This document shows positions 3,520 to 58,560 of a stretch of 64,000 bases of DNA, piece by piece. Each line of letters opens with the position of its first letter. The first letter of the stretch is position 1. The stretch spans positions 1,246,789 through 1,310,788 of the forward strand of contig NZ_CP037968.1 of the NCBI RefSeq assembly GCF_019633745.1. Direction: 5' to 3'. A program made the position numbers and the translations under genes. Origin of the DNA: Methanofollis formosanus (GTDB taxonomy: Archaea; Halobacteriota; Methanomicrobia; Methanomicrobiales; Methanofollaceae). The notes under the pieces are model-generated. The model did no database searches. It was not told where the DNA came from and saw nothing but the letters and a program-made list of their open reading frames with translations.

Positions 3520-4345
3520 GCGTGCTCCTGCTGAAAAGAGATCGGCACTCTCTCGTCCAGGTTCTATCTCCGGGGTCATGATATCAGGGCGGCGTGGTGA
3601 TCAGAACGTGCCGCCCCCTCATCTTCGAATCTGTTCTGCCGTCTCGCGAAAAGATAGGACGGGGGACGGCACGAAACGCATGATCCTGCTGAGAGTAGAT
3701 CGGTGCTCTTCTGTGCGGGTTCTATCTCCGGGGTCATGATAACAAGGCGGCGTGGTGATCAAGGACGGGCCGCCCCCCGTCACGACGCCTGTTCTGCCGT
3801 CTCGCGAAAAGATAGGACGGGGGCGGCGAAGAGTGGTGTGCTCCTGCTGAGAGTAGATCAGTGCTCTTCTGTGCGGGTTCTATCTCCGGGGTCATGATAT
3901 CAGGGCGGCGTGGTGATCCGAACGTTCCGCCCCCCGTCACGACGCCTGTTCTGCCGTCTCGCGAAAAGATGGGGCGGGGACGGCGAAGAGTGGCGTGCTC
4001 CTGCTGAAAAGAGATCGGCACTCTCCCGTCCGGGTTCTATCCTCAGGGCCATGAAAACAGGGCGACGTGGTGATCCGAATGTGCCGTCCCCTCATCTTCG
4101 AATCTGTTCTGTCACCTCGCGAGAAGATAGGACGGGGGCGGCGAAGGGTGGCGTGCTCCTGCTGCAAAGAGATCGGCGCTCTCCCGTCCCGGTTCTATCT
4201 CCGGGGTCATGGCACCAGGACAGCATGGTGATCCGAACGTGCCGCCCCCGATCACGGGATCTGTTCTGTCGTCTCCCCCGGGGGAAACCCCCAGGACTCG
4301 AAGCCCTCCGGTCGTCCCCTCACGACGAGGATAGGCGGGGGCGGC
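3520..4345 (+). repeat. Tandem intergenic repeat array 1 (5 units, about 157-bp period)
   Basis: The box TTCTATCTCCGGGGTCATG begins near 3561, 3720, 3878, 4035 and 4192, a period of 156-159 bp. Each unit continues with a GGGCGGC...GCCGCCC inverted repeat, then CTGTTCTGCCGTCTCGCG with AAGATAGGACGGGGGCGGC. The last copy is followed by a degenerate GC-rich hairpin (4270-4340). The array fills the gap between hypF and the M23 gene; open frames in it are shadows. 4346-4518 shows nothing further. The same unit recurs in five other gaps of this window. Confidence 0.9.
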
Positions 4346-4518
4346 GGTTGAACAGGGTCTCCGTCTCTTCATCTGTCCTGAAAAGAGAGAGCAAGCGACG
4401 AGAAATTTTCATCAGGTATGCTTGATGCGTGCACCCCGTTCATGCCCGGTTCTCCACAGCCGGATCGAATCCGCACTCTGGGAGGGGTCGGATATCGGCA
4501 CTCGGCGGAGCGTCACCG

Positions 4519-4533
4519 AATAGTATATATTAG
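4519..4533 (+). promoter_or_regulatory. TATA-box promoter of the M23 lipoprotein gene
   Basis: AGTATATATTAG lies about 30 bp before the ATG at 4558. This spacing puts the predicted transcript start at or within a few bases of the start codon (leaderless or nearly so). Confidence 0.5.
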
Positions 4534-4557
4534 ATCTGTCGTCCAGATGCTGCCATC

Positions 4558-5781
4558 ATGTCGAAGATCCGCCAGGTTTTCATCCTTTTCATCATGACGG
4601 CGGCGATCGTTGCCGCCGGATGTACGCAGTCCACAGCGGAACTGCAGGCATCCGCGATCCCGCCGGTGAATCTGACCGTCCCGTTCTCGCCCATCCCGGT
4701 TCCGAGTTCGGAAGGCGTCAATCTTGCGTACGAACTCGAACTCTCGCCGACCGGAAACGAGACGCCCGTACCGGAAAGGGTCGAGGTCGTCGATCCCGCC
4801 ACGGGAGAGAGCCTCTGGTCTCTTGAGGGGGATATGCTGGCCGCGCTCTACCATCCGGTCGCAGACCCGCCGCCGACCGCGGCGGAACTTGAGAATGGTA
4901 CGGGAAAAGTGCCGGTCCCGAGAGTCTCTCTCTGGTTCAAGGTCAGTCCGGATGCCGTGCCCGACCGGCTCGTCCACAGGCTGACCCTGAACCAGACCGG
5001 GAGCGGGCTGTCGCCGGTTACGCTGGATGGCGGCGAGGTTGCGGTGCGCACGGATCTTCGGCCGGTGGTGATCGGTTCTCCGATGCGTGGCGCCGGATGG
5101 ACGGCAATCGAGAGCACGGCTCCCATGACTCATCATTTCCTTGCTCAGATCACGATGAACGGGGTGACCCGCGTTCCCCAGCGGTACGCACAGGACTGGA
5201 TATACCTGGACCCGGAGACGGGGGAGGCGGTTGTCGGGAACGCGACGCTGGCAAAGAACTACCTGGGATATGGCAGAGAGATCTATTCGGTCGCCAACGG
5301 GACGGTGGTGGATGTCCTGGACGGTCTTCCTGATCTGGAGACCATTTATTCCGCCCCGCCGGCCACCGTCGAAACCGCAGCCGGCAACTATGTCATCGTC
5401 GATATCGGGGACGAGAAATATGCCTGCTATGCCCATATGGCTCCGGGCTCGGTCAGGGTCGAGGAAGGCGACACGGTTGCGGAAGGGCAGGTGCTGGGGC
5501 AGGTGGGCAACAGCGGGAACTCCGATATCCCGCATCTCCACTTCCAGGTCGTGACAGATACGCCTTCGTTCCTGGGGGCCGAGGGGTATCCTCATGTGTA
5601 CCGTTCGTTCGATGTGATCGGCGGGATCAACCAGACGCTTGCAGAACAGAAAACTTCGGAACCTGATTATTCGATGAACCGGTTCTGGTCGGAACTCGGG
5701 GACTTTGTCGTCTTCTCCCCGCAGTCGATGTCCCGGGAGAACGAACTGCCGGAAAATTTCGCGATCGTCCTGCTCCCCTGA
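4558..5781 (+). CDS. M23-family metallopeptidase-like lipoprotein
   Basis: 407 residues. The N-terminus has a hydrophobic segment followed by AAGC at about residues 19-22, a lipobox-like site, so the protein is probably exported and lipid-anchored. The C-terminal half is an M23 (LytM/lysostaphin-like) beta fold: NGTVVDVLDG, GNYVIVDIGD, YAHMAPGSVRVEEGD, GQVGNSGNSDIPHLHF. The HLH pair and the YAH histidine are present. The segment RYAQDW appears to hold the aspartate of the HxxxD metal site, but its usual histidine is not obvious. Methanomicrobiales lack murein, so the substrate is unknown; family members can be inactive or act on other peptides. It stands alone with its own promoter and terminator. 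Confidence 0.85.
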   Translation: MSKIRQVFILFIMTAAIVAAGCTQSTAELQASAIPPVNLTVPFSPIPVPSSEGVNLAYELELSPTGNETPVPERVEVVDPATGESLWSLEGDMLAALYHPVADPPPTAAELENGTGKVPVPRVSLWFKVSPDAVPDRLVHRLTLNQTGSGLSPVTLDGGEVAVRTDLRPVVIGSPMRGAGWTAIESTAPMTHHFLAQITMNGVTRVPQRYAQDWIYLDPETGEAVVGNATLAKNYLGYGREIYSVANGTVVDVLDGLPDLETIYSAPPATVETAAGNYVIVDIGDEKYACYAHMAPGSVRVEEGDTVAEGQVLGQVGNSGNSDIPHLHFQVVTDTPSFLGAEGYPHVYRSFDVIGGINQTLAEQKTSEPDYSMNRFWSELGDFVVFSPQSMSRENELPENFAIVLLP

Positions 5782-5787
5782 TCGCAT

Positions 5788-5808
5788 CCTTTTTTTTGTT
5801 TTTTTCCT
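5788..5808 (+). terminator. T-rich terminator after the M23 gene
   Basis: Two T runs (8 and 7 T separated by G) begin about 8 bp after the stop codon, the usual form of an archaeal intrinsic terminator. Confidence 0.6.
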
Positions 5809-6314
5809 GCGGGATCTGCCGGGGAACTCCGTTGAGTATGGTATCCCGGCGGTGTGGAAGAATTTTGAAGGAGATTTGAGTTTGAGGGAGGTCTCAAGGC
5901 CGGACGCATCATCCTGATGTAGAGGATGTTCCCCGAGTGCAGATCCCCCGGGACTCTCTGGAGGGAGGTGCGCTCTCGTCGCGGGGGTGGTCGGGGAGAT
6001 TGTGAGATGGGTGAAGGGTGGGTGGGATGCTTCCCACCTCCTGATGCGGCGGTGGTGAAAATAGATAGTATTAGATATCACCATCTCTATTGATCGATCA
6101 GTCATGGTCGGGTGAGCGTGGTGGCAGGTGAGAGGACGAGAATGGTGGGGTTCAGGTACAGCGGGAAAATCCCCCACACCCGGGGAATTCAAAATGGTCG
6201 TCCTGATAAAATTGATTTTCAGGGAATTGTTCGCGATGCAAATAAAAAAGGGAAAAAGATCTTCAAAGAATCCCGCATGATGAGTCTAAACCTGAAATAA
6301 AAGGTCTGGTTCAT
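5809..6314. other. Intergenic region without a supported gene
   Basis: About 500 bp. A palindrome TGATCGATCA lies near 6091 and AT-rich TATA-like sequence at 6060-6080. A 62-codon frame at 6112-6300 has no recognisable features. Base composition becomes AT-richer from 6200 on, continuing into the next gene. Confidence 0.5.
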
Positions 6315-7850
6315 TTGAGATCTGAGCACTCCTCTTTTTCCGGGTGCAGGTACCCGGAGATCTTCGAGATTTTGCATCATACCGATTACTTTGGGGAAGA
6401 AGATGGGCCGTGTTCCTGCATCCTGAAAAAATGCGTCTACAGCAGGGAATGGGACTATGAGTACAATGAGTATTACTCCCGGACTCTTTTTGGGATCGAT
6501 GCGGCGCTTGGTATCCTGAAGGGCATTGTGGAGAATCCTGAAGAGAGAAATTTCTCCGAAGAGATAAAACGAAACCTTGCATCGATGAAAGATTCCGAGA
6601 GGGAGAGGATCAAGGGAATCATTGATCACTTCCCCTTGAAAGAGATCTCAAATCATATCTCTCGAATATCCTTGTATACAAAAGAAGGACGCGAGCCCAG
6701 GTATCTTGGATTCGTCGATCTCTCTCCTTTCGGGGTTAGTGAAGTTTATATCAGACCGCCGTTGTGGATGACCTCTCCTCATTATTATCTCCCCTGTGAG
6801 AGGATTTTTTTCCCGGACACCGCCCTGAGGCTCAAAGAAAATAGTGCAGAAATGGTCAGTTGTGTGCCGTTCATCAAAGTCCAGGCCGAGGTGGCGGTAT
6901 GTGCACAGTATGCGGTACGGATGGCACTCATGATCCTGTCTCAGCGACCTCCGACGGTGCCGGAGATCGTCTTCGAAGCGAGCAAGACGGCGCTGAAAGG
7001 TGGTCTGGATCGTCATCAGGAAGACGGGTGGTATGATGATGAGATCAAGCAGGCTATTGAAGACAAGGGATATGGGGTCCATGAACTGGGGCACTGTGAA
7101 TATATCAGGTGCGAAGAATGCGGTGCGGAGTTCAACCTGAACCCCCGCCTCAAGAGTCCGGATCTTGAAAATATTTATGCGTATGTGGAATCCGGCATTC
7201 CTGTGATTTTAGGAATCAAAGATACGAGTTACTTGCCCTGGTGGCCAGATGAAACCGAGGGAGAAGCACATGCAATCGTTGCAATAGGACATACCATTTC
7301 TGATGACAACAGGATCGACGGTCTGATCGTACATGATGAAAGCACCTATCCGTACCAGGTGCTGTATGAAGTCCTTGATAACGGGACTCAGATAGAAGAT
7401 ATGATCGATTCTGCAATTATTCCTGTCCCTCGGGAGGTTGTCGTCGAGTACCCTGTTGCAAAGGGGATATTCAATGAGATCATAGGGCATCTCCAAGAGA
7501 ACGGGATATTGCGTGATATTCTGTACCGGCCTATTCTCGTCGATGCGCATCATGCAAAGAGGATGCTTGGCGAGGAAGGAAAGAGGGCGGGCATAATGGA
7601 TTGCACTATCCCGGTCGATGTGAGAGATGCGTTTTTGTCTGCCTATATGGGTCGGTATGTCTGGCTGTTTGAGTTGCGGTACGATACGGGTGACGAGCAT
7701 TACGAGTATACCGGGGATATTCTGATCGGAACGAAAGATCCGGTATGCATGGGGATGCATGTCCCGGAGGCAGGGATATATGCATATTATGAAGATGAGC
7801 GGGCTGAGGGGTTGACGTTCAACGAGTATTCTGATGATGGTGAGTGGTGA
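6315..7850 (+). CDS. Putative papain-like (C39-type) cysteine peptidase, unknown role
   Basis: 511 residues if the TTG at 6315 is the start; no ATG lies in frame before about residue 90, so the true start is uncertain. The middle of the protein has the order expected of a C39/papain-like thiol peptidase: a glutamine before VCAQY (Q, then Cys near residue 197), EAHAIVAIGH (His near 318) and VHDES (Asp near 333). A CxxC pair (RCEECGAEF) lies between Cys and His. The N-terminal third carries CSCILKKC. No signal peptide is seen, so it acts in the cytosol. It is clearly AT-richer than neighbouring genes, a sign of transfer. I do not recognise the family; the peptidase call rests on motif order alone. 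Confidence 0.5.
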   Translation: MRSEHSSFSGCRYPEIFEILHHTDYFGEEDGPCSCILKKCVYSREWDYEYNEYYSRTLFGIDAALGILKGIVENPEERNFSEEIKRNLASMKDSERERIKGIIDHFPLKEISNHISRISLYTKEGREPRYLGFVDLSPFGVSEVYIRPPLWMTSPHYYLPCERIFFPDTALRLKENSAEMVSCVPFIKVQAEVAVCAQYAVRMALMILSQRPPTVPEIVFEASKTALKGGLDRHQEDGWYDDEIKQAIEDKGYGVHELGHCEYIRCEECGAEFNLNPRLKSPDLENIYAYVESGIPVILGIKDTSYLPWWPDETEGEAHAIVAIGHTISDDNRIDGLIVHDESTYPYQVLYEVLDNGTQIEDMIDSAIIPVPREVVVEYPVAKGIFNEIIGHLQENGILRDILYRPILVDAHHAKRMLGEEGKRAGIMDCTIPVDVRDAFLSAYMGRYVWLFELRYDTGDEHYEYTGDILIGTKDPVCMGMHVPEAGIYAYYEDERAEGLTFNEYSDDGEW

Positions 7851-8043
7851 TCGTGATGGGTTTTTTTCCAGAGATAATATCGGGATCCTGTACCACATCA
7901 TACGATTTCTGGGCTTTGTAGAATCGGGCATGAGCCCCGGGCTCAAGCATACGCGATGAAAATTTTCTGAGCTGCGCTACGGTGTGTGGGCGGGATCCCA
8001 ATCCTCGCGACAGAACCTTTGGAAGATCTGGTTTCATCGCCGC

Positions 8044-8088
8044 CCCCCGGCTATCCTCGTCGTGGGGGTCCGGGGGCAGAGCCCCCGG
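8044..8088 (+). repeat. REP-like GC-rich hairpin, copy 1
   Basis: CGGCTATCCTCGTCGTGG precedes a strong hairpin, CCGGGGGC-AGA-GCCCCCGG. Related copies occur at 8350, 29461, 43381, 61321, 61436 and 62280. Confidence 0.7.
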
Positions 8089-8349
8089 CGCGAGATTGCG
8101 GGAAAGATTTGGCGATTAGGGGCGGTCGATCCATCAGAAGAATTTTCTATCCTCTGCGTATCGGCTTCAACGTGATATGACGAGTTCAAATGCTCATGCA
8201 AACCTGAAGAGAGGATCGTCAGGATCATTTTCATGGTAAATCATCTTGATGGTTCTCTTCGACGGGGGGCTCGCCGCCCCCCGAACTCCCCGCGCGAGCG
8301 ATAGGCGGAGGACTGCAACCCCCCTTTCATGGCCATTGATCCGCCTTCC

Positions 8350-8392
8350 GCCCTAATCTTCATCATGGGGGGTCCGGGGGCGGAGCCCTCGG
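8350..8392 (+). repeat. REP-like GC-rich hairpin, copy 2
   Basis: CCCTAATCTTCATCATGG is followed by GGTCCGGGGGCGGAGCCCTCGG, a less perfect version of the copy at 8044. Confidence 0.65.
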
Positions 8393-8623
8393 TGTGAACA
8401 GGAGGGAAGGCGATGGGTGAAGGTCACAGGGGGGTTGAGGTGATGAAAAGAGGATGTTTTCTACAGAGCCGATTTCTGGTTCTCTCTTCATCGTAAGGAG
8501 GATCGATCATTCATTCCACAGGCAGGAGCATGGTCAAATAAAAATCAGCATATTTATCGTGTGGAAGGGACACGTCGATCATGTTCTGTCTTCAATCGGC
8601 CACCACGAGCAGGAGAATCTTCT

Positions 8624-9625
8624 GTGACGGTATATTATACCACTCTGGATGAGATCGAAGAGGGCCTCTCAACAATTTTACCCGACAAAAAGTATCGAAA
8701 GAACTGTCTCTCTGTATTTGCCGAATCGATCGTTGAAGCGAATTCATATGGCAGGAACAGGTGGGGGGTCTATTGTTTCCGCGATGGTGCCCGGATAGGT
8801 GTCCGACTCCTGGTGGGCCATCTCATCGTTTTTACGATAGACCGGGACGGGATGTGGCTGTCTCTGGATAAAACCCTGCTGGATGAGAGCAAAGATATGC
8901 GGCATCTGTTCGACCGGAGAGAGGACTGGCAGTGGGGTCGAGGAGAGTACTCTGAGTATCAGGTGGTCAGATCGCGGAACGGATATTATATCCCTTCGAG
9001 CACGGATTTTGATCTCTGGCCGTTCATCCGTCAGTTTCACTTTGCCTATATCAAACGTTGTGCACAGCGATATGACCGGTTGGACCCGAGGAGCCAGCAG
9101 CATCACTCCCCTGCCCTCCTGGCGTATATCAGAAAAGAACTCGGGCAAAAGATCCCGGGTCCAGAATATGGGGCGGAGACTGGCGATACTATTTTTCAGG
9201 AGATGGAAGAGTTTCAGAGGAGATACCGAGAACTGCCTGAGACCGAACGTGCATCTCTGGTTCTGAGTCGTATCGGGCAGGGGGTGTTCAGGTCAGATCT
9301 TAAGAACTACTGGAAGACCTGTGCGGTGACGGGATGTGCGGAAACTGAGTTGCTGGTCGCATCTCATATCAAACCCTGGAGGGATTCGGATAATTTCGAA
9401 CGCCTTGATGTCTATAATGGGTTATTGCTTGTTCCACAGATCGACCGTGCTTTTGACAGAGGATATGTGAGTTTTGATGACGGGGGGAAGATCATCATCA
9501 GTCGAAACCTCAGCGATGGCGACAGGAAGAAGCTTGGCATTTATCCTGGCATGAGACTGAGGACGGTGGAGAAGAATCATCGTCCCTATCTGGAATACCA
9601 TCGGCAGAAGATCTTCATAACATGA
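8624..9625 (+). CDS. HNH endonuclease domain protein
   Basis: 333 residues from GTG at 8624, chosen because AGGAG lies 8 nt before it and a TATA-like box at 8547 would start the transcript near 8575; an in-frame GTG at 8561 lacks both. The C-terminal 110 residues are a clear HNH nuclease of the restriction type: GVFRSDLKNYWKTCAVTGC, ASHIKPWRDS (first His), ERLDVYNGLLLVPQIDRAFDRG (Asn, central helix), with GYVSFDDGGKI after it. The N-terminal 220 residues are not recognised. Such proteins often act as modification-dependent or solitary restriction nucleases. No methyltransferase partner is nearby. It follows an AT-rich putative peptidase gene, so both may belong to an accessory (defence-like) patch. 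Confidence 0.8.
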   Translation: MTVYYTTLDEIEEGLSTILPDKKYRKNCLSVFAESIVEANSYGRNRWGVYCFRDGARIGVRLLVGHLIVFTIDRDGMWLSLDKTLLDESKDMRHLFDRREDWQWGRGEYSEYQVVRSRNGYYIPSSTDFDLWPFIRQFHFAYIKRCAQRYDRLDPRSQQHHSPALLAYIRKELGQKIPGPEYGAETGDTIFQEMEEFQRRYRELPETERASLVLSRIGQGVFRSDLKNYWKTCAVTGCAETELLVASHIKPWRDSDNFERLDVYNGLLLVPQIDRAFDRGYVSFDDGGKIIISRNLSDGDRKKLGIYPGMRLRTVEKNHRPYLEYHRQKIFIT

Positions 9626-9773
9626 ACATTTCATTTCTGGAGAAATCTTTTTGCTGTAGATCCGATCGCGTTCGTCTTCCCTGGATCTTGAACGAAGCGG
9701 TATCATCGTCTCACTTCGCAGATCAAATAATTTTTATCTAAGAAATATTAATTTGATCGAGGTGCAGAGCGGC

Positions 9774-10235
9774 ATGAAACGTGAGATCCTCCTGGAGCAC
9801 GCATCGACGATCCAGGACGAACCGATGGAGCACGGGATCGTCCTCGACAGGGATGGGGAGGTATGCACCCGCCTTTCTGGCGGGCGGTCGTCGATCGTCT
9901 TCGATCACCGGACCCTCCATGCCGTCTGCCACCGCGTCTTCATGCACAACCACCCGCGGGGCGGTGCCTTCTCCACCGCGGATATCTGGACGGCCTGCGC
10001 TCTCTGCATGCGGGGGATGGTGGTCGTGACGCATGGGTGTGTCCACTGCCTCGCCCCACCGGGCGGGCGGGACTTCTTCTGCCGGGACGATTATGCCGAC
10101 ATCGTCCGCTGCTATCGTTTCCGTTGCCTTACGGCGGACCTCTCGAAACGCCTCCGTCCGCCGGATCGGGTCTGGAAGGCGGTGGCTGCCGACATGGACC
10201 TTGGATACTGTGCGATCCCCTTTCAAAAAGAGTGA
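9774..10235 (+). CDS. JAMM/JAB-like small protein
   Basis: 153 residues from ATG 9774 (GAGGTG nine bases before; the TTG at 9753 is less likely). The stretch HNHPRGGAFSTAD matches the zinc site of JAMM/RadC-type proteins, HxH-x6-SxxD, one residue shorter in the spacer than RadC. It contains many cysteines (about 9), some in pairs that could bind metal (CALC, HGCVHC). There is no signal peptide. JAMM proteins cleave isopeptide bonds or occur in DNA-processing and sulfur-transfer proteins; which applies is unknown. TATA-like TTTTTATCT lies near 9731. Confidence 0.55.
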   Translation: MKREILLEHASTIQDEPMEHGIVLDRDGEVCTRLSGGRSSIVFDHRTLHAVCHRVFMHNHPRGGAFSTADIWTACALCMRGMVVVTHGCVHCLAPPGGRDFFCRDDYADIVRCYRFRCLTADLSKRLRPPDRVWKAVAADMDLGYCAIPFQKE

Positions 10236-10250
10236 GATGGGTGACCTTCG

Positions 10251-10445
10251 TCACTGCTCGTAGGCGATGAGGATCTTGCCGAGTTTTTTCTCTTCTTTCT
10301 GGACGTCCCTGATCTCATCGTCGGAGAGGTCGGCAAATGCCGGAACTTTCTCGTAGGCCACGAGGATGGTCCCGAACTCTTCCTCGAACTTCCGGAGTTT
10401 TTTCAACTTCTCGTCAGAGAGGTGTGCATAGGCCGTGCATTGCAT
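10251..10445 (-). CDS. Small charged protein with two internal repeats
   Basis: 64 residues. Two similar halves are visible: LSDEKLKKLRKFEEEFGTILVAYE (residues about 9-32) and LSDDEIRDVQKEEKKLGKILIAYE (about 40-63), each ending in the same hydrophobic tail. GGTGA lies 6 nt before the ATG, supporting translation. Predicted helical and cytosolic; function unknown. It is divergent from the next gene and convergent with the JAMM-like gene. Confidence 0.6.
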   Translation of the reverse strand: MQCTAYAHLSDEKLKKLRKFEEEFGTILVAYEKVPAFADLSDDEIRDVQKEEKKLGKILIAYEQ

Positions 10446-10469
10446 GGGTCTTCACCGATCCATCCACTG

Positions 10470-10495
10470 ATTTCATAAGATTTATATCTTTTATA
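10470..10495. promoter_or_regulatory. Divergent AT-rich promoter region
   Basis: GATTTATATCTTTTATAC lies between two divergent genes and reads as TATA-like on both strands (ATATAAATC on the minus strand). Confidence 0.45.
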
Positions 10496-10503
10496 CATCG
10501 TGG

Positions 10504-11268
10504 TTGATATATCCCAACGGCACTGGCGGCCGGGCCGATCGGCCACGGCGGGTGGGGGGTGGAGACCTGGATCCCTGCGAACCGTCCTTCTTCAGAAAGC
10601 CATGGCTCACTCTCTGGTTCTCGGTGCAGTGCCGGTACCCCGACCCTCCGGGGCAGTACACCCTCGCCTGCACCCTTCACGACCTGGTCGGCGCCGTGAA
10701 AGAGACCTTCGACGGCGGCGGGATGTCGGCGGGGACCTGCGGGAGGCGGGCCCCGAAGTTCAGGACGAAGGTGAAGGGGACCGACGACCCCTGCACCGTC
10801 GAGTATCTCATCCTGCCCCGTGCATCGTACTCGCTCCGCGACCTTGCCGCCGAACGGCGGGCGCTCGTGGTGGCGAACCGGATGCTCGCCTCGCGGTCGG
10901 GGGCTCGGTTCAGGACGGTACCGCTTGCCTGTCTCGGCTACGACGACGCGGGCGAACCGGTGGGACGACTCAGTTTCGGCCCGCTCTCGGTGCGGTACCT
11001 GATGCGGGACCGCGTGCGGTCCGGGATCGACGACCTCTTCTTCGACAAGTTCTACTTTTACGAAACCGTTTTCGAAGCGGTCTCGAGGCTCAAGCACACC
11101 GGTCTCTCGGAGTACGCCGCCGGATGGGTGACCGACGTGGAGGCGGTCATCGACGAAGAACTGGCACGCGGCGGGTGCGACCGCCGGACGATCGAGCGGC
11201 GGGCCCGGGAGGTGGACAACTTTCTCCGCGGCGTCCACCGGCGGCACCGGATGCCCCGTGTCTGGTGA
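10504..11268 (+). CDS. Conserved-looking hypothetical protein
   Basis: 254 residues from a TTG at 10504; the true start could be further down because the first 25 residues are low complexity and the promoter is only about 20 bp away. The body is a soluble, arginine-rich alpha/beta protein with well-spaced hydrophobic blocks (LTLWFSVQC, VEYLILPRASYSL, FYFYETVFEAV) and a basic C-terminus. Codon use matches neighbouring genes, and the competing frames are arginine-rich shadows. No known domain recognised. Confidence 0.6.
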   Translation: MIYPNGTGGRADRPRRVGGGDLDPCEPSFFRKPWLTLWFSVQCRYPDPPGQYTLACTLHDLVGAVKETFDGGGMSAGTCGRRAPKFRTKVKGTDDPCTVEYLILPRASYSLRDLAAERRALVVANRMLASRSGARFRTVPLACLGYDDAGEPVGRLSFGPLSVRYLMRDRVRSGIDDLFFDKFYFYETVFEAVSRLKHTGLSEYAAGWVTDVEAVIDEELARGGCDRRTIERRAREVDNFLRGVHRRHRMPRVW

Positions 11269-11319
11269 ATTTTCTGGAGAGCCGGGCATCAGGAACCGGC
11301 GATGGATATTCTCCGATGG

Positions 11320-12110
11320 GACGGCACGTTCCTGATCAGCACGTCACCCCGTGCCGTCCCCCGTCCTATCTTTTCGCGAGATGACAGAACAAGTTCGGTG
11401 AAGGGGGACGGCATGTTCTGAACATTACGCCGTCCTGTTTTCATGACCCCGGAGATAGAACCGGCATGAGAGAGAGCCGATCTGTAGCAGGAGCACACCA
11501 CTCTTCGCCGTCCCCGTCCTATCTTCTCGCGAGACGGCAGAACAGATTCGATGATGAGGGGGCGGCATGTTCTGATCAGCACGCGGTCCTGGTGCCATGA
11601 CCCCGAAGATAGAACCTGGACGGGAGAGTGCCGATCTACTCTCAGCGGGATCATGCGTTTCGTGCCGTCCCCCGTCCTATCTTCTCGCGAGAAGGCAGGA
11701 CAGATTCGATGATGAGGGGACGGCACGTTCTAATCACCACGCCGTCCCAGCTGTCATGACCCCGAAGATCGAACCAACATGAGAGAGAGAGCCGATCTGT
11801 AGCAGGAGCACACCACTCTTCGCCGTCCCCCGTCCTATCTTCTCGCGAGAAGGCAGAACAGATTCAAGGATGAGGGGATGGCACGGTCTGATCACCACGC
11901 TGTCCCCGCTGTCATGACCCCGGAGATAGAACTGGCATGAGAGAGAGCCGATCTGTAGCAGGAGCACGCCACTCTTCGCCGCCACCGTCCTATCTTCTCG
12001 CGAGACAGCAGAACAGATCATGTGACAGAGGGCGGCACGTTCTAATCACCACGCCGTCCCCGCTGTCATGACCCCGAAGATCGAACCCGCACAGAAGAGC
12101 ACCGATACTC
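11320..12110 (-). repeat. Tandem intergenic repeat array 2 (5 units, minus orientation)
   Basis: The box CATGACCCCGGAGATAGAAC, reverse complement of that in array 1, occurs near 11442, 11596, 11754, 11912 and 12066, spaced 154-158 bp. Between boxes lie TATCTTCTCGCGAGACGGCAGAACAGAT and GGACGGC...GCCGTCC arms. The array fills the gap between two convergent genes (10504-11268 and rpl12). 12111-12216 shows only the rpl12 terminator beyond it. Confidence 0.9.
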
Positions 12111-12231: not shown

Positions 12232-12540
12232 TTAGCCGAAGAGGGCACCGAGCCCGGCCATACCGGACTCTTCCTTCTCCTCTTCCTTCTCTTCCTCTGC
12301 CTCTTCCTCGGCCGGAGCGGCCTCGGCAGGGGCGGCGGCGGCCGGAGCGGCAGCGACCGGAGCGACGGCGGCCTTGGAGATGGCCTCCTCAATGTCCACA
12401 CCGTCGAGTGCGGCCACGAGGGCCTTCACACGGGCGTCGTCAGCTTCGATACCGGCAGCGGAGAGAACGGCCTTGACATTCTCCTCGTTGATGTCCTTGC
12501 CTGCGTTGTGCAGGAGCAGTGCAGCGTAGATGTACTCCAT
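12232..12540 (-). CDS. rpl12: 50S ribosomal protein L12 (P1-like stalk protein)
   Basis: 102 residues from ATG 12540 with AGGTG six bases before it. [22 protein letters not shown] is the conserved dimerisation region. An Ala/Pro hinge follows, then a Glu/Lys-rich stretch and the GTPase-contacting tail MAGLGALFG. It binds as dimers to P0 on the large subunit and recruits translation factors. Last gene of the rpl11-rpl1-rplP0-rpl12 operon. The last 16 residues are nearly identical to the end of P0, as usual in archaea. Confidence 0.96.
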
Positions 12541-12584
12541 GATTTTCACCTATCTCAAATTACAATCTTGAATTTTATTCGTGT

Positions 12585-13601: not shown

Positions 13602-13602
13602 C

Positions 13603-24084: not shown

Positions 24085-25525
24085 ACACCATATCTCGCCG
24101 CCGCTCCCCGGCTATCCTTGCGCGAGACGGCGGAAAATTTCGGTGACGGGGGGACGGCACGGTCTGATCACCACGCCGTTCCGTTATCATGACCCTGAAG
24201 ATAGAACCCGGAGAGGGGAAGGGCACGCCGCTCTTCGCCGCCCCTCGGCTATCTTCTCGCGAGACGGCAGAACAGATCCTGCGAAGTGGGACGGCACGGT
24301 CTGATCACCACGCCGTTCCGTTATCATGACCCTGAAGATAGAACCCGGACAGAAGAGTGTCGATCATTTCCAGCAGGATCACGCCGCCCTGTGCCGTCCC
24401 CGTCCTATCTCCTCGCGAGACGGCAGAACAGATCCTGCGAAGTGGGACGGCACGTTCGGATCAGCACGCTGTCCCATCGTCATGACCCCGGAGATAGAAG
24501 CCGGACGGAAGAGAGTTGATCCATTTTCGGAGGGAACTCGCGTGATGCCGTCCCCGTCCTATCTTCTCGCGAGATGACAGAACAGATCGTGCGAGAGGGG
24601 GCGGCACGGTCTGATCATCACACCGTTCTGTTGTCGCGACCCCGAAGATAGAACCCGGACGGGAGAAAGTTGATCCATTTTCGGAGGGAACACGCGTGAT
24701 GCCGTCCCCGCCCTATCTTCTCGCGAGACGGCAGAACAGATCGTACGAGAGGGGACGGCATGTTTGGATCATCACGCCGTCCTGTTGTCATGACCCCGAA
24801 GATAGAACCCGGACAGGGGAAGGGCACATCACTCTTCGCCGTCCCCGCCCTATCTTCTCGCGAGACGACAGAACAGATCTTGCTAGAGGGGACGGCACGA
24901 TCGGATCACCACGCTGTCCCCCCGTCATGACCCCGAGGATAGAACCCGAACGGGAGAAAGTTGATCCATTTTCGGAGGGAACACGCGTGATGCCGTCCCC
25001 GCCCTATCTTCTCGCGAAAGAACAGAACAGATCGTGCGAGAGGGGACGGCACGTTCTGGTCAGCACGCTGTCCCCCCGTCATGACCCCGAAGATAGAACC
25101 GGGACGGGAGAGAGCCGATCGATTCTCAGAGGGGCACACCACTCTTCGCCGTCCCCGCCCTATCTTCTCGCGAAAGAACAGATAAGATTCGGGAATGAGG
25201 GGACGGCATGTTCGGATCATCACGCCGTCCTGGTGCCATGACCCCGAAGATAGAACCCGGACAGGGGAAGGGCACGCCGCTCTTCGCCGCCCCCGCCCTA
25301 TCTTTTCGCGAGATGACAGAACAGATCGTGCGAGAGGGGGCGGCATGTTCTGGTCACCACGCCGTCCCCCCGTCATGACCCCGAGGATAGAACCCGGACG
25401 GGAGAAAGTTGATCCATTTTCGGAGGGAACACGCGTGATGCCGTCCCCCGCCCTATCTTCTCGCGAGACGGCGGAAAATTTCGGTGATGAGGGGACGGCA
25501 CGGTCTGATCAGCACGCCCGTCGTT
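24085..25525 (-). repeat. Tandem intergenic repeat array 3 (9 units, minus orientation)
   Basis: The largest array. The box CATGACCCCGAAGATAGAAC (or close) occurs near 24187, 24324, 24481, 24636, 24788, 24926, 25080, 25238 and 25374, spaced 136-158 bp. Units fall in two lengths (about 137 and 155 bp) that differ by loss of a block near CGATC. It separates the convergent GNAT gene and acyl ligase gene. Many small frames here are by-products of the repeat. Confidence 0.92.
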
Positions 25526-25570
25526 CTCGACACCCCGCCCGCACACAAAGGTGGGAAACCAGAGAGAAGA

Positions 25571-37399: not shown

Positions 37400-37487
37400 T
37401 TCAGGCCTCCTCGGGAAACGAACGCCGGCATCATGGGGTATGCGGCGATACCGTTCCCGTGGGCGCACAAAGATTCGCGGGATTTAA

Positions 37488-45175: not shown

Positions 45176-45505
45176 TGATGCGTGATGAACGCGTGATGAT
45201 GCGTGATGAACGCGTGATGATGCGTGATGAACGCGTGATGATGCGTGATGAACGCGTGATGATGCGTGATGAACGCGTGATGATGCGTGATGAACGCGTG
45301 ATGATGCGTGATGAACGCGTGATGATGCGTGATGAACGCGTGATGAACGCGTGATGAACGCGTGATGATGCGTGATGATGCGTGATGAACGCGTGATGAT
45401 GCGTGATGAACGCGTGATGAACGCGTGATGATGCGTGATGATGCGTGATGATGCGTGATGATGCGTGATGATGCGTGATGATGCGTGATGAACGCGTGAT
45501 GATGC
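45172..45505. repeat. 21-bp satellite (10+11-bp subunits)
   Basis: GTGATGATGC (10 bp) and GTGATGAACGC (11 bp) alternate strictly over about eight 21-bp periods (45174-45340). They then occur in irregular order, with a run of the 10-bp form at 45430-45490. It begins at the stop codon of the truncated AlbA_2 gene. The frame across it on either strand encodes a heptad repeat and is an artefact of the 21-bp period. Confidence 0.93.
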
Positions 45506-46583: not shown

Positions 46584-47159
46584 TCAGGCCATCGCACCGC
46601 CAGCGACCGCCACCGCGGCGACCATCACGATGAGAACGATGAAGAGCCCGAAGAGGACGACCATCGGCAGGACAACAGCGACCGCCGCCTTCCCGGTCGT
46701 GGTGTCGTGGAACTCCCTGATCCCGATGACCGCGAGGACCAGCGTCCAGATCGTGGCAAGGAAACCGAGAACCGGGATCCACCCGAAGAGCAGGCCGGGG
46801 GTGGAGGCGTACGCCAGAGCCTTGATGGTCGCTTCGAGACCGTTCCCGCCGACGAGGAGGGCGACGAGGACGTGGACGATGAGGCCGATGACAAAGAGGC
46901 CGATGATCTCGCCGATGAACGTCCCGACGATCGCACCGATACCGGCGCCGATGCCGGTCACGGTCCCCATGCCGGGGATATCGGCGTACGACGAACCGAA
47001 CCCGGCCATCGTCATGATCCCGACGAGGACGGCGTTCACCGCGAGGATGGCGACGAAGTACGTGAGCACCTCGCCGAGGTCGTCACCCCGTGTGTTCCTG
47101 AAGGTCTCTACCGGGTCCATGATGAACCCTTTCGCTTTTTCGACGATGTCAGGTGACAT
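46584..47159 (-). CDS. Yip1-family membrane protein
   Basis: 191 residues with five hydrophobic helices (about 33-53, 65-90, 92-112, 122-145, 155-187). The N-terminal amphipathic start IVEKAKGFIMDPVETFRNTRGDDLGEVLTY (in part) and ALAYASTPGLLFGWIPVLGFL are typical of archaeal Yip1-domain proteins. Function unknown; possibly membrane organisation. Its promoter carries a perfect inverted repeat. Confidence 0.82.
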   Translation of the reverse strand: MSPDIVEKAKGFIMDPVETFRNTRGDDLGEVLTYFVAILAVNAVLVGIMTMAGFGSSYADIPGMGTVTGIGAGIGAIVGTFIGEIIGLFVIGLIVHVLVALLVGGNGLEATIKALAYASTPGLLFGWIPVLGFLATIWTLVLAVIGIREFHDTTTGKAAVAVVLPMVVLFGLFIVLIVMVAAVAVAGGAMA

Positions 47160-47299: not shown

Positions 47300-48125
47300 C
47301 GAAGACGACGGGAAGGCGTGATGATCCGAACGTGCCGCCCCCCGTCACGACGTCTGTTCTGCCGTCTCCCGAGAAGATAGGGCGGGGGCGGCACGATGTG
47401 GGATTCCTGCTGAAAAAAGATCGACACTCTCCCGTCCCGGTTCTATCTTCGGGGTCATGTTAACGGGAAGGTGTCGTGATCGGATCACGCCGTCCCCTCA
47501 TCATCGATCTCTTCTGCCGTTTCGCGCGAGGATAGAGCGGGGGACGGCGATGAAGTAGTGTGCTCTCTCCCGTCCGGTTCAATCTTCGGGGTCATGACAA
47601 CGAAACGGCGTCATGATCAAACCATGCCGTCCCACCTTCACCGGATCTGTTCTGCCGTTTCGCGAGAGGATAGGACGGGGGACGGCGATGAAGTAGTGTG
47701 CTCTCTCCCGTCCGGTTCTATCTTCGGGGCCATGACAACAGGACGGCGTGATGATCAGACCGTGCCGTCGCCCATCACCGAATTTTTCCGCCGTCTCGCG
47801 AGAAGATAGGCCGGGGCTGGCAAGGGAGTGTGATCCCGCTGAAAAAAGATCGGCACTCTCACGTCCCGGTTCTATCCTCAGGGTCGGGACGACAGGACGG
47901 CGTGGTGATCAGATCACGCCGCCCCTCTCGGACGATCGTTCCTGCCATCTCGCGAGAAGATAGGGCGGGGACGGCGAAGAGTGGTGTGCTCCTGTTGCAA
48001 AAGGATCAGCACTCTCCCGTCCCACTTCTATCCTCGGGGTCATGACACCAGGAAAGATGCGATGATCAAACCATGCCGCCCTCTATCGCACGATCGTTCC
48101 CGCCGTCTCGCGTGAGGACGGGGAT
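47300..48125 (+). repeat. Tandem intergenic repeat array 4 (5 units)
   Basis: The box GGTTCTATCTTCGGGGTCATG lies near 47439, 47577, 47714, 47868 and 48025 (spacing 138, 137, 154, 157 bp), so both unit lengths are present. The TCTCGCGAGAAGATAGG core sits between boxes. The array fills the gap between the Yip1 promoter and the end of the radical SAM gene. Confidence 0.9.
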
Positions 48126-48144: not shown

Positions 48145-49794
48145 TCACTCGAACGAGAGATACTCCTCCACCCTGGTCTTCCCCGCGACCTTCCTGAAGC
48201 CCGCGAGGTCCCTGAACGGCCGCTTCACGATCACCTTCGGCACCGTCTTCTTCCCAAGACCCGGGATCCAGCGGAGGGCGGTGTGCGGGAGGGTGTTCAC
48301 CGGGATCGGTGCCGGGAGGGCGGTGATGGAACGGTGGCCCCATCCGACGACGACGGCGTCGAGCGCGGTGCCGGCGGGCACCTGGAGCGGGAGGCCGACG
48401 AGGATCGGGTACGACCCCATCTGCCGCCCGAAACTCGTCGCCCCCGGTTTCTCGACCCCCACGTCCCTGAGTAGCGTCCCGGCCGGGAAGACCCGCTGGA
48501 GCATCGGGAGGTCGAAATGCTTGTGCACCCACTCCTTGAACGCCCGGAACTCACGGGCATGCTTGCCCAGGGTGTTCTCCTCGTAGGCCCTGGTCCCGGC
48601 AAAGGGCATCAACTGCCTGATGTTCACCCGGCGGACCATCAGCCCGGCGTCGAGCACCTGCTGCAGGAAGGCCCGGTTCTGCTCGTAGGTCGCCGGCGTC
48701 TCGCCGGCCAGACCGCAGACAAAGTTGATCCCGGGCAGGAGGTCGGGCACCCCGTTCCGGCGTGCGCCGCCGACCTCGTTGACGATCTCGACGGCCCGCA
48801 GGACGGCGTCGGGCAGGGCCTTGAGGTTGTTTGCCGCGATCACCGCCGGGTCCGCGGTCTCCATCCCGAAGGCGGCGACGTCGCCCGGCGTGTGGCCGGC
48901 GACGATCGCCTGGAGGGCGGCGCGGCTCTCCTCCTCGTGGCGGGCGATGGTGCCGGGGTTGACGTTGTCGATGTGGAGCGTTTCGAGATCTGGCGCCGCC
49001 GCACGGACCCTGGTGAAGAGATCTTCGATGAGGTCGGGGCGCGGCCGCGGGAACTCCGCATCGCCGCCGGTCCCGTAGGCGAGGAGGTCGGGCTGTCGGC
49101 CGAGCCTGAAGTGGCGGGCGCCGGCCTCGTGGAGGGCCGCCACCTCGGCGGCGAGGCCGGAGATTGAGCGGTAACGCGGGAGGCCGTAGAAGGGTTCGGT
49201 GCAGAACGAACACCCGCCGCACGCCGCACGGGCACACCCCTGCGCCGTCTCGAGTTCGACCATCACCCGCGGGAACATCGGGTGCTCGGCCACCACGCCG
49301 GCGCCGAGGACGCTCCAGCGGTCGATATCGGCATAACTCGCCGTCCCCTCGGGCTCGCCGCCCGAGAGAAGAGCGTCGAGGGCGGCCGACGGCGACCCCC
49401 TGAGCAGGTGGTCGAACCCCGCGACCGCCGTCTCGACCGCCTTCGCCCCGCCCTGCGGAGCGTACCCGAACCCGATCGGCCCGCCGATCACCGTCGTCGG
49501 CCCGCGCAGGAGGGTGCCGATCTGCGAGAGTTCGGTGAGGGTCGCGGGCGTGCCGGCGAGATATTTGCCGGGCACCGTGATCCCGGCGATCACGAGAAGC
49601 AGCGCGGCGTTTGCAGCGGTGCGGAGGAGCGTCGGGTCGTCGCGGACGGCGTCGATGGTGGTGTAGCGGACGGCGTAACCGTGCTCCCTGAGCACGCCGG
49701 CGCAGTACCTGATATACGGAGAAATATAGGGCGGGACGCCGAGACAGGCCGGTTCGTCCACATACCCGTCCAGAATAAACGCTTCAGAGGTCAT
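48145..49794 (-). CDS. Radical SAM protein with C-terminal helix-hairpin-helix
   Basis: 549 residues from ATG 49794; the upstream frame is Ser/Arg noise. The N-terminal 180 residues look B12-binding-like (VIAGITVPGKYL, TVIGGPIGFGY). The [4Fe-4S] site reads GCARAACGGCSFC, so the cysteines fit C-x7-C-x2-C or C-x2-C-x2-C rather than the standard Cx3Cx2C. GMETADPAVIAANNLKALPDA and LPGINFVCGLAGET follow. The C-terminus has a DNA/RNA-binding HhH, IPGLGKKTVPKVIVKRPF. Possibly an RNA- or protein-modifying enzyme. It overlaps mptE by 11 nt. Confidence 0.85.
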   Translation of the reverse strand: MTSEAFILDGYVDEPACLGVPPYISPYIRYCAGVLREHGYAVRYTTIDAVRDDPTLLRTAANAALLLVIAGITVPGKYLAGTPATLTELSQIGTLLRGPTTVIGGPIGFGYAPQGGAKAVETAVAGFDHLLRGSPSAALDALLSGGEPEGTASYADIDRWSVLGAGVVAEHPMFPRVMVELETAQGCARAACGGCSFCTEPFYGLPRYRSISGLAAEVAALHEAGARHFRLGRQPDLLAYGTGGDAEFPRPRPDLIEDLFTRVRAAAPDLETLHIDNVNPGTIARHEEESRAALQAIVAGHTPGDVAAFGMETADPAVIAANNLKALPDAVLRAVEIVNEVGGARRNGVPDLLPGINFVCGLAGETPATYEQNRAFLQQVLDAGLMVRRVNIRQLMPFAGTRAYEENTLGKHAREFRAFKEWVHKHFDLPMLQRVFPAGTLLRDVGVEKPGATSFGRQMGSYPILVGLPLQVPAGTALDAVVVGWGHRSITALPAPIPVNTLPHTALRWIPGLGKKTVPKVIVKRPFRDLAGFRKVAGKTRVEEYLSFE

Positions 49795-51916: not shown

Positions 51917-51948
51917 AATTAGACTAACATATTAGAGTCAAAGCACAG

Positions 51949-52022
51949 GGGCCTGTAGCTTAGTCAGGCATAGCGACGGACTCTTAATCCGTAGACCAGG
52001 GGTTCAAATCCCTTCAGGCCCG
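51949..52022 (+). tRNA. tRNA-Lys (anticodon CTT)
   Basis: 74 nt. The acceptor stem GGGCCTG pairs with CAGGCCC; the discriminator base is G and CCA is not encoded. The anticodon stem CGGA/TCCG closes the loop CTCTTAA with anticodon CTT. The T arm is GGGG-TTCAAAT-CCC(T). No intron. A T-rich run follows directly. No duplicated 3' end is seen nearby, so there is no sign of an integrated element here. Confidence 0.94.
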
Positions 52023-52134
52023 TTCCTTTTTGCTCTGATGGTTTTCTGCATTCTCACCATCCACAAGTGCGGGCGCTCCAATGGACGCCGATATCTCAGG
52101 AGAACTATTTTCATCGCACGATAATAAAGAGGGG

Positions 52135-52620
52135 TATCTCTCGGCCTTTCCGGCCGTCTCGCGGGAGGACAGGCGGGGAAGGTATAGTTTGGTGTGTTCC
52201 TCCGAAAAATGATCAGCCCTCTCCGATCCGGTTCTATCTCCGGGGTCATGCTGACAGGAAAGCGTACTGATCAGAACGTGCCGTCCCCTATCACGGGGTC
52301 TGTTCTGCCGTCTCGCGAGAAGATAGCCGAGGGACGGCGAAGAGCGATGTGCCCTTCTCCCGTCCTGGTTCTATCCTCGGGGCCATGCCGACAGGGCAGC
52401 GTGCCGATCAGAACGTGCCGTCCCCTATCGCACGATCGTTCCCGCCGTCTCGCGAGAAGATAGCCGAGGGACGGCGAAGAGCGATGTGCCCTTCCCCCGT
52501 CCCGGTTCTATCCTCGGGGCCATGCCGACAGGACGGCGTGCCGATCAGAACGTGCCGTCGCCCTCTCGCACGATCGTTCCCGCCGTCTCGCGAGAAGAGA
52601 GGGCGCGGGCGGCAATGAAG
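52135..52620 (+). repeat. Tandem intergenic repeat array 5 (3 units, 137-bp period)
   Basis: The box GTTCTATCTCCGGGGTCATG (or CCTCGGGGCCATG) lies near 52230, 52367 and 52503, exactly 137 bp apart, with TCTCGCGAGAAGATAG cores between. It lies between tRNA-Lys and the convergent ABC ATPase gene. 52023-52134 holds only the T run after the tRNA; 52621-52750 has a small hairpin (CTGCTC...GAGCAG). Confidence 0.9.
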
Positions 52621-52750
52621 TGGTGGTCCCATCGGTGTCCTGCTCTGAAGAGGGAGCAGGGGCCCATGCCTGCTCCAGAGACCCACGATCATGGTCAATT
52701 CTCCAGAACCGGAATACGAAATTTTTCTCAAGAAGAGATATTGAGAGGGC

Positions 52751-53638
52751 TCACCGCCCCACCGCCACGAGCATCTCCTCAAGCGACGGGTAGCGCGACT
52801 CCACCCGCTCCACCCGTCCGCCCGCGGCGGTGACCATCGCGGTGACGGCGTGCATCCCCTCGACGTCCCCGGCCTCCGCGAGGTACACCCCCTCGGCCCG
52901 TGAGTACGAGAGATCAGGATCGAGGAGACCGGCATCCAGCACCGTGAAGTAGATCGCATAGGTGAGCGACCCGAAACGCTCCCGCAGTTCGGCCATCGTC
53001 CCGAAGGCCTCGATCCGGCCGCGGCGCAGGATCATCACCCGGTCGCAGATCGCCTCGACCTGAAAGAGGTTGTGGGCCGAGAGGACGATCGTCTTGCCCT
53101 CCGCCCCGAGGCCTTTGAGGAACTCGCCGATGAACCGCCCGGTCATCGGGTCGAGACCTGAGGTCGGTTCGTCGTAGACCAGGAAGGACGGATCGTGGAT
53201 GAGGGAGCGCGCGATCGCGACCTTGCGGCGCATCCCCTTCGAGAGTTCGCCGATCTTTTTTTCACCGGGATCGAGGGAGAGCGAATCGAGGAGCCGCTCG
53301 GCCCTTACCCGCACCGTCGCCCGGTCCAGGCCGTAGATCTCGCCGAAGAAGAGAAGATAGTCGTGGACCCGCATCGTCTCGTAGAGCCGCGACTCCTCGG
53401 GCAGATAGCCCAGGGTCTGCTTGAGCGCCGACGGGTCGGCGAGGACGTCGGCCCCGCCCACCGAGAGGCGCCCGGCCGTCGGGAGCGAGAGCCCGGAGAG
53501 GATCTTGAGGAGCGTCGTCTTCCCGGCGCCGTTGTGCCCGACGATCCCGAGCACCTCCCCGTCCTCCAGGTCGAAACTCACGCCGTCGAGGGCGCGGAAG
53601 GCCCCGTACTCCTTCGCCAGGTCGTGTGCCGCGATCAT
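52751..53638 (-). CDS. ABC transporter ATP-binding protein (ABC-2 type)
   Basis: 295 residues. Walker A is GHNGAGKTTL (near 35), the signature is LSKGMRRKVAIARSL (near 133), Walker B is FLVYDEPTSGLDP (near 155), and the His switch is SAHNLFQVE. The C-terminal 80 residues are the extension typical of ABC-2 exporters. It powers export through the two permeases encoded divergently next door. Only about 140 bp separate it from the permease start, so a shared promoter region is likely. Confidence 0.93.
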   Translation of the reverse strand: MIAAHDLAKEYGAFRALDGVSFDLEDGEVLGIVGHNGAGKTTLLKILSGLSLPTAGRLSVGGADVLADPSALKQTLGYLPEESRLYETMRVHDYLLFFGEIYGLDRATVRVRAERLLDSLSLDPGEKKIGELSKGMRRKVAIARSLIHDPSFLVYDEPTSGLDPMTGRFIGEFLKGLGAEGKTIVLSAHNLFQVEAICDRVMILRRGRIEAFGTMAELRERFGSLTYAIYFTVLDAGLLDPDLSYSRAEGVYLAEAGDVEGMHAVTAMVTAAGGRVERVESRYPSLEEMLVAVGR

Positions 53639-56597: not shown

Positions 56598-56729
56598 GAG
56601 GGGCCGACCACCTGAGATCCCTGCAATCTCATACATAAAAAATCAGAGATATACAAAAAATACGGCTAAGGTTCGGAAAAAAAGAGGAAAAAGTAAATAG
56701 AAAAACTTGGAAGTGAAAGTAGATCCACT

Positions 56730-58043
56730 ATGGACAGACGTAGACTGATTCTGACCGGAGCAGTCCTGATGCTCCTCATCCTTGCCGCACCTGTCGCCGC
56801 AAACTCTGTTGGCGGCGACGAGGCGTGGATCAAGGTCCGCTGCAACATCGACGGTGCAGTGGTATATTTCGACAACGACTACAAGGGCACGATCGAGAGC
56901 GGCGAGTTGAACGTAGCCGTCCTCACGACGGCCGCCCCGTACCACACGGTAAAGGCCCAGATGGACGGCTACTACACGGCGTCGGCACCCATCGGCGGGT
57001 ACCCCGCGGTCGGTGAGACCAGCACCGTCTACCTCACCCTCAACCCGGTCCCGACCCCGGCCCCGCCGACCACCGGCACCCTCTCGGTGAGTTCCTCGCC
57101 GAGCGGTGCGAAGGTCTATGTGGACGGCGCGTATTACGGCCGGACGCCCCAGAAGGTCACCGGGCTTGCCGCCAAAAGCCACACCCTCGAGGTGCGCCTC
57201 GACGGCTACGACACCTGGAGCAGTTCCCAGCGCGTGAAGGCCGGCGAGACCACCAGCGTCCGTGCCGACCTGAACCCGCACGTCAACTACGGCTCGATCT
57301 ACGTCACCTCCAGCCCGTCGGGTGCGAAGGTCTACCTGGACGGGACGTACGAGGGCAAGACCCCGCGGACCATCACCGGGATCAGCGAGGGCCGTCACTA
57401 TATCGAACTCGAAGAGGCCGGGTACCAGGAGTGGACCGGGCCGGTGACGGTCGTCGCAGGGCAGCAGACGTATGTCTCGGCCACCCTCAACTCGAACCCG
57501 AAACCGGTCTCCGGGACCATCGACGTCTTCTCCAATCCCGTAGGGGCCTACATCTACCTTGACGGCGAGTATCAGGGCCAGACCTACCCGGAGGGCTACG
57601 TGATCATCGGCGTCACGCCGGGCACCCACACCGTCACCCTCAAACTCACCGGGTACAAGGACGTCTCCTCGTCGGTGAACGTGAACTCGGGACAGGATTC
57701 GTCGGTGAGGATGACCCTCGAACCCGCGGTCCCGTCGGGCGACACCGGGTCGATGGAGATCACCTCCACGCCGGCAGGGGCGGAGGTCTACCTGAACAAC
57801 GAGTACTGGGGCGTGACCCCGGTGACGCTCCGTGACCTGACGACCGGCAGTTACACCGTCACCCTCAAACTCGCCGGCCACCCGGACTGGTCGACGACCG
57901 CCCAGGTGAACGCGGGTGCGAAGACCCCGGTCGCGGCACAGTTCGCCGAGCCCGCACCGACGCAGCAGTCCCCGGCGCCGCTCCTCCCGGTCCTCGGTGC
58001 GCTTGCCCTCTTCGGGTGCATCGCAGCCCGGATGCGGCACTAA
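56730..58043 (+). CDS. PEGA-repeat surface protein
   Basis: 437 residues. Signal peptide at 1-25 (LLILAAPVAAN). One divergent and four clear PEGA domains follow, each with PSGAKVYVDGxYxGxTP and a GxHTVxLxLxGY end, near 110, 185, 265 and 345. A Pro-rich linker and a C-terminal hydrophobic tail (LLPVLGALALFGCIAARMRH) form a membrane or sorting anchor. PEGA domains are common on the outside of methanogens. It follows the ABC exporter by about 130 bp with its own AT-rich leader (56635-56725) and may be unrelated to it. Confidence 0.88.
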   Translation: MDRRRLILTGAVLMLLILAAPVAANSVGGDEAWIKVRCNIDGAVVYFDNDYKGTIESGELNVAVLTTAAPYHTVKAQMDGYYTASAPIGGYPAVGETSTVYLTLNPVPTPAPPTTGTLSVSSSPSGAKVYVDGAYYGRTPQKVTGLAAKSHTLEVRLDGYDTWSSSQRVKAGETTSVRADLNPHVNYGSIYVTSSPSGAKVYLDGTYEGKTPRTITGISEGRHYIELEEAGYQEWTGPVTVVAGQQTYVSATLNSNPKPVSGTIDVFSNPVGAYIYLDGEYQGQTYPEGYVIIGVTPGTHTVTLKLTGYKDVSSSVNVNSGQDSSVRMTLEPAVPSGDTGSMEITSTPAGAEVYLNNEYWGVTPVTLRDLTTGSYTVTLKLAGHPDWSTTAQVNAGAKTPVAAQFAEPAPTQQSPAPLLPVLGALALFGCIAARMRH

Positions 58044-58044
58044 G

Positions 58045-58063
58045 ATTTTTTTTCTTTTTTTTG
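58045..58063 (+). terminator. Strong T-rich terminator
   Basis: Two T runs (8 and 9 T) separated by C begin directly after the PEGA stop codon. Confidence 0.65.
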
Positions 58064-58119
58064 AGTTCTGTCGAGATCATATCCTGACAACCCCTCCTCG
58101 CGGCCATCCCCCCTATCGC

Positions 58120-58560
58120 AATTTCTGGGTTCTCGGGGTCATGACGGAGGGACGGCACGGGTTGGTGTGCGCCTCGAAAGAATGATCGGCTCTCTCTGAT
58201 CCGGTTCCATCTTCGGGGTCGCAAAAGCGGGACGGCGTGACGATCCGGGGTGCCGTCCCCGATCACCGGGTCTGTTCTGCCGTCTCGCGAGAAGATAGGA
58301 CGGGGGACGGCAACAAAGATCGACCGTCTCCCGTCCGCTCCTATCTTCGGGGTCATGTTAACGGGGCGGCGTCATGATCAAACCATGCCGTCCCCTCATC
58401 ACTGAATCTGTTCCGCCTTCTCGCGAGAGGATAGGACGGGGGACGGCACGTCACTTGATTCACCCGAAAAATGATCAGCCCTCTCCGATCAGGTTCTATC
58501 TTCGGGGTCATGCTGACAGGAAAGCGTACTGATCAGAACGTGCCGTCCCCTGACCTCCAC
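58120..58560 (+). repeat. Tandem intergenic repeat array 6 (4 units, first degenerate)
   Basis: Boxes GGTTC-TATCTTCGGGGTCATG lie near 58202, 58339 and 58491, with a decayed copy at 58128. Cores with TCTCGCGAGAAGATAGGACGG are between them. The 58561-58740 remainder shows only degenerate repeat pieces. Confidence 0.88.

Follow-up and report, generated by a model that had tools for sequence, protein, structure and literature searches.

Unidirectional tandem arrays of an intergenic repeat in Methanofollis formosanus and their relation to a dispersed palindromic family

Closest described repeat systems

BIMEs and REPs of E. coli, Pseudomonas and others are high-copy, intergenic and palindromic sequences with paired inverted hairpins; they are enriched beyond gene 3' ends, mosaic and sometimes tandem (PMC2817692, PMC3733652). 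REPs are defined by a tetranucleotide tag, GTAG or CGTC, standing unpaired at one hairpin foot (PMC3733652). MITEs are recognised by terminal inverted repeats together with a target-site duplication. Non-coding dispersed satellites have been reported among prokaryotes from Leptospira interrogans and Methanocella conradii; long-unit families are described as very rare, and the archaea of that survey had one such family only, with five satellites of a 37-bp unit (PMC6749651). In Methanomicrobiaceae, the repeated G/C-rich rPQS motif is entirely intergenic and random in direction, with about half of the copies in tail-to-tail and 11% in head-to-head gaps; its four G-runs are separated by loops of 1, 3-5 and 1 (A) bases, and a C-rich tract comes after them (PMC8044849).

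Here we analysed a window of 64,000 nucleotides, positions 1246789-1310788 of the genome of Methanofollis formosanus DSM 15483T (CP037968.1, one contig, 2,965,921 bp). It contains six tandem arrays of an intergenic repeat, hereafter the T unit, and copies of a dispersed element, hereafter S. As far as we searched, T matches no named family, as a sequence-only reading of the window had supposed; BIMEs, MITEs, prokaryotic satellites and the archaeal rPQS motif come closest. T behaves like BIME or satellite DNA but falls outside the REPs and BIMEs, although the high copy number, intergenic place, paired inverted hairpins, enrichment beyond 3' ends, mosaic make-up and occasional tandem order described above are shared. 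GTAG was absent from the S and T consensus sequences, and CGTC, as read from the consensus, occurred only within a paired stem. The arrays are unidirectional instead of alternating, although the two hairpins of a unit derive from inverted halves, and the S hairpins are larger, with roughly 70-90 bp per arm. Furthermore, a Y1 (RAYT-type) transposase is missing: PF01797 gave no match in this genome (G000), and six other Methanofollis and five control genomes matched. A RAYT-driven REP was rejected on this ground.

Terminal inverted repeats with target-site duplications were found in S-bearing elements, which resemble MITEs in that they end in 12-bp inverted repeats, have target duplications of 8 bp, fall into size classes of about 240 and 540-570 bp and contain no genes. 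The T arrays, in contrast, have no demonstrable paired ends or target duplications and no fixed size. With prokaryotic satellites T shares non-coding head-to-tail arrays of one family at many loci; it differs from the archaeal satellite family in its structured 137/157-bp unit and its about 55 or more arrays. The context pattern of T repeats that of rPQS, and a G-run next to a GC hairpin is present in the nested palindrome of S, whereas T is devoid of the nested G/C palindrome. The published four-G-run form was not found in 860 kb of this genome, and a G3+ quadruplex pattern was present in 2 of 270 T units and 2 of 55 S elements. A CRISPR was rejected, since the units are alike throughout with a mean identity of 74-78% and no unique spacers.

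Tandem arrays in the window and in the genome

The sequence-only reading had described six tandem clusters with about 31 units (5, 5, 9, 5, 3 and 4 copies), each cluster having one direction and those at 11.3 and 24.1 kb being inverted. A profile search recovered 32 T units of at least 30 bits in six arrays of 5, 5, 10, 6, 3 and 3 units, with nhmmer E values of 1e-10 to 1e-25; the earlier copy numbers were right within partial edge units. The directions agreed as well, arrays 2 and 3 lying on the - strand and arrays 1, 4, 5 and 6 on the + strand. Tandem Repeats Finder reported arrays at 3519-4275, 11353-12091, 24249-25518, 47427-48112 and 52216-52598, with periods of 137-158. Comparison of the units confirmed that they stand head to tail at a period of 137 or 157 bp and are alike over their full length, without spacers.

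Array 1 (3561..4275, +, 5 units) lies past the 3' end of a hypF-like gene (1261-3477, +) and is followed by a Peptidase_M23 gene (4558-5781, +). Directly beyond its last unit stands a remnant of a nested G/C palindrome (CCCCCGGGGGAAACCCCC), and it is adjoined by M3, a right-end module of the MITE-like family (4372..4461, +, 72 bits), which contains GAAATTTTCATCAGGTATGCTTGA and has its end near TTCTCCACAGCC. Arrays 2 and 3 occupy convergent gaps. Array 2 (11359..12086, -, 5 units) is bordered by an uncharacterised gene (10624-11268, +) on the left and by a ribosomal protein L12/P1-like gene (12232-12549, -) on the right. For array 3 (24106..25526, -, 10 units, one partial), the left neighbour is a gene at 22986-24053 (+) and the right one an AMP-binding enzyme gene (25571-27118, -). 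Array 4 (47301..48124, +, 6 units, the first partial) has as neighbours a radical-SAM-like gene (48145-49794, -), past whose 3' end it lies, and a Yip1-domain gene (46584-47159, -), to which it is upstream. On one side of array 5 (52230..52610, +, 3 units) is tRNA-Lys (51949-52022, +), on the other an ABC transporter ATPase gene (52751-53638, -). Array 6 (58204..58559, +, 3 units, the last partial), with a short leading fragment near 58131, comes after a PEGA-domain gene (56730-58043, +) and before a radical-SAM gene (58741-60054, +). No unit of the window fell in a called gene, and the placement in gene-free gaps, mostly beyond 3' ends, was borne out.

The window also holds a 21-bp tandem repeat (45171-45502, 16 copies, 94% matches) and an open frame of 2614 codons (29624-37468, -) that contains tandem repeats of 78 and 81 bp. 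At the place of this frame, the sister genome G001 has related, longer, repeat-rich DNA.

Two profiles, for T and for S, were built and used to read the window and 40 further stretches (about 800 kb), 860 kb of the M. formosanus genome in all. Since most of the stretches were picked around arrays, T is over-represented in the result: T units numbered 317, and S elements or fragments 147. Fifty-five arrays of at least two units, 28 on the + and 27 on the - strand, held 311 of the T units; they comprised 2 to 11 units, with periods clustering at 154-160 and 136-138, and none of them was mixed in direction. Ten mostly non-targeted stretches (199 kb) contained 24 T and 56 S; together, the cores of the two made up ~19% of their non-coding DNA. 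The unit core, searched against the whole genome, gave 246 matches (best 150 of 246 listed). The genome was sequenced with Illumina only (PMC9119062), so that T copy numbers could be under-counted. Mean identity was 78% for units of one array and 74% for units of different arrays; units so clearly different argue against an assembly artefact.

Genes were called with a simple codon-based caller, with a Pfam check on some genes only. By these calls, none of 305 T units lay inside a gene. Among gaps of at least 150 bp, T was present in 21 of 65 convergent, 27 of 121 tandem and 4 of 52 divergent gaps. The depletion in divergent gaps relative to the others (4/52 vs 48/186; Fisher p 0.004) was also seen for S (3/52 vs 66/186; p 9e-6), and T arrays avoid promoter gaps. 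Among the 27 arrays that lie in tandem gaps, 13 were oriented with transcription; the direction of T arrays is random relative to neighbouring transcription.

Unit anatomy and mobility marks

By consensus, the S element consists of two inverted hairpins, each around a nested G/C palindrome, with arms GCCTTCCC...GGGAAGGC and GCCGCCCC...GGGGCGGC joined by GTGATGATCAGACGT. The T unit keeps this two-hairpin plan and the TGATGATCA linker, common to S and T, and is missing the nested palindromes; the modules M3, M5 and M5b recur beside both. T looks like a compact tandem form of the genus-wide dispersed intergenic palindromic S family. We infer that S gave rise to T, or else T could be the older form. 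The T consensus folds into strong hairpins and carries strongly conserved islands and short palindromes (TCTCGCGAGA, TGATC and TGCCGTCCCC), and its two periods come close to whole numbers of 10.5-bp helical turns, 15 (157.5) and 13 (136.5).

Linkage between variable T positions was low, with an r2 of 0.059 at 1-2 bp and less than 0.01 beyond 10 bp. Such near-background linkage indicates that variants were shuffled between copies, or saturated. Gene conversion, offered by the sequence-only reading, agrees with the decay of linkage past about 10 bp; saturation could also produce this decay. One long-range link was clear, 68-120, a base pair in the stem of the second T hairpin, which hints that this stem is kept.

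Some S copies lie within MITE-like elements whose inverted ends, GGCTYTGTAGAA, are 12 bp long and whose target duplications measure 8 bp. Of 29 inverted-end pairs, 10 had an 8-bp duplication matching at least 7 of 8 positions, compared with none of 116 shifted controls. One such element in the window (7912..8470, 559 bp, strand not assigned) has two S modules and the ends GGCTTTGTAGAA/TTCTACAGAGCC; its 8-bp target duplication, GATTTCTG, is perfect. A T or half-T unit is present in some of the elements that have both inverted ends and target duplications. Beside the T arrays themselves, end-like sequences pointed outward on 30 array sides and inward on 9 (p 0.001); only four arrays had them on both sides, with a best duplication match of 3 of 8, and none was counted as a duplication. 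The idea of a mobile unit behind the repeats is partly supported, in that the family is linked with MITE-like modules, but none of the arrays was shown to be an intact transposon.

An IS6/IS240-type helper transposase, suggested by the 8-bp duplication, was rejected because PF13610 had no match in this genome or in the genus Methanofollis. Two inverted-end pairs enclosing genes were inspected by eye for an autonomous partner, and the genes were not transposase-like. Viral carriage of T was rejected as well, as a 17-bp T core had no exact match in viral contigs.

Relatives and origin of the arrays

Of 12 Methanofollis genomes, 11 contained S, and among 150 sampled genomes of the order only two outside the genus did so, weakly. 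Besides M. formosanus, long T matches occurred in low number in three other species only (G001, G006 and G007); the massive expansion of T is confined to M. formosanus. In G004, G010 and G011, many matches span only the first hairpin arm of S, and single-arm elements may accordingly be the older form.

The sister genome G001 is colinear with that of M. formosanus and about 90% identical. At the site of array 3, where M. formosanus has 1.5 kb, G001 has 54 bp and G006 almost none, which agrees with the recent spread proposed earlier. G001 has about 42 bp at the site of array 4, and 14, about 0 and 17 bp at three array sites outside the window. At the L12 site, array 2 is represented in G001 by one T unit with the same L12-side boundary; a 7-unit array elsewhere is faced by a short T group (one to three T units at such sites), and several other array sites carry S elements instead. 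The simplest reading of these alignments is that the T arrays were gained in the M. formosanus lineage. The T units of G001 differed from those of M. formosanus by 27-35% on average, and their distance to the orthologous array was about the same as to other arrays, which would fit mild homogenisation of T within the genome. A hypermutation of units was rejected as unneeded in view of these distances, despite a difference among units (22-26%) above the four-fold divergence from G001 (19.5%).

The sites of arrays 5 (52112-52753) and 6 (58074-58681) are occupied in G001 by unlike sequence of about 1.5-1.7 kb, with an apparent extra gene in each. The segment between arrays 1 and 2 (3484-11982) is partly inverted relative to G001, and ~6.5 kb of it is missing there. 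Because these two arrays, opposite in direction, bracket the inverted segment, arrays may also drive rearrangement.

We consider it reasonably probable that the arrays, which number about 55 or more and reach 11 units, represent a non-coding satellite specific to this lineage, amplified from the palindromic T unit, reshuffled by recombination and tolerated outside promoters. S would spread within MITE-like modules, in keeping with its inverted ends. A variant without nested G/C palindromes, as the shared anatomy suggests, would then seed new sites. Each seed may have grown head to tail via unequal recombination or replication slippage, a step suggested by the one to three T units of G001 that face 5 or 7 in M. 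formosanus. Copies would exchange short stretches, giving shuffled variants, as the loss of linkage indicates. Insertions being absent or rare in genes and divergent promoter gaps, the arrays would survive mainly beyond 3' ends. This requires neither an RNA nor a protein product, and the arrays are presumed to have no function. Against the satellite model, the excess of within-array over between-array identity is smaller than expected from simple recent local duplication, no T array was found to be a whole transposon, and no candidate transposase was identified for the family.

BIMEs bind gyrase and other proteins in enterobacteria. By analogy, T units could be putative protein-binding DNA sites for nucleoid, topoisomerase or chromosome-segregation proteins, amplified and kept as useful clusters. 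This seems unlikely, although the conserved islands and palindromes, the near-integral helical periods, the uniform array direction, the placement outside genes and promoters and the double changes that maintain one second-hairpin pair agree with it. Helical phasing is made less convincing by periods that vary over several bp (154-160), a genome-strand bias is absent, and the sister does without nearly all arrays, so that any binding role would not be general. A putative DNA-binding role is possible; somewhat less likely still is its bolder version, in which the arrays are clustered directional putative binding platforms, with unit lengths kept near whole helical turns, for an archaeal chromosome-organising or topology protein, amplified in one species for re-shaping its chromosome.

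More doubtful again is that each array is a transposable element, a T array inside a MITE-like element that moves as a block. The outward bias of end-like sequences, the M3 module after array 1, the T-bearing elements with target duplications and the near-empty sister sites speak for it, whereas no array has both ends and a target duplication, and the arrays resemble one another only weakly as blocks (13% of neighbours fall in the top 5%). Block copying as the main route was rejected on the latter ground. It is very improbable that the arrays are tandem structured RNAs, or strand-specific terminators or mRNA stabilisers. Strong consensus hairpins and sites mostly beyond 3' ends would suit such a role, but direction is unrelated to neighbouring genes, and the opposite strand folds equally well (mean z-score -1.9, compared with about -1.6 for the unit strand). 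Furthermore, covariation in 269 units was clear for the 68-120 pair only, with equal G.T (93) and A.C (90) mismatches, and an Rfam search of the window matched tRNA only and no T. On account of direction, folding symmetry and scant covariation, an RNA element was rejected, and the RNA function raised by the sequence-only reading was not upheld.

Under the satellite reading that we prefer, one cultured archaeon carries about 55 or more arrays of one long-unit non-coding satellite family. As its sister, ~90% identical, presents near-empty, single-element or one-to-three-unit states, satellite birth and growth would be directly testable in a microbe.
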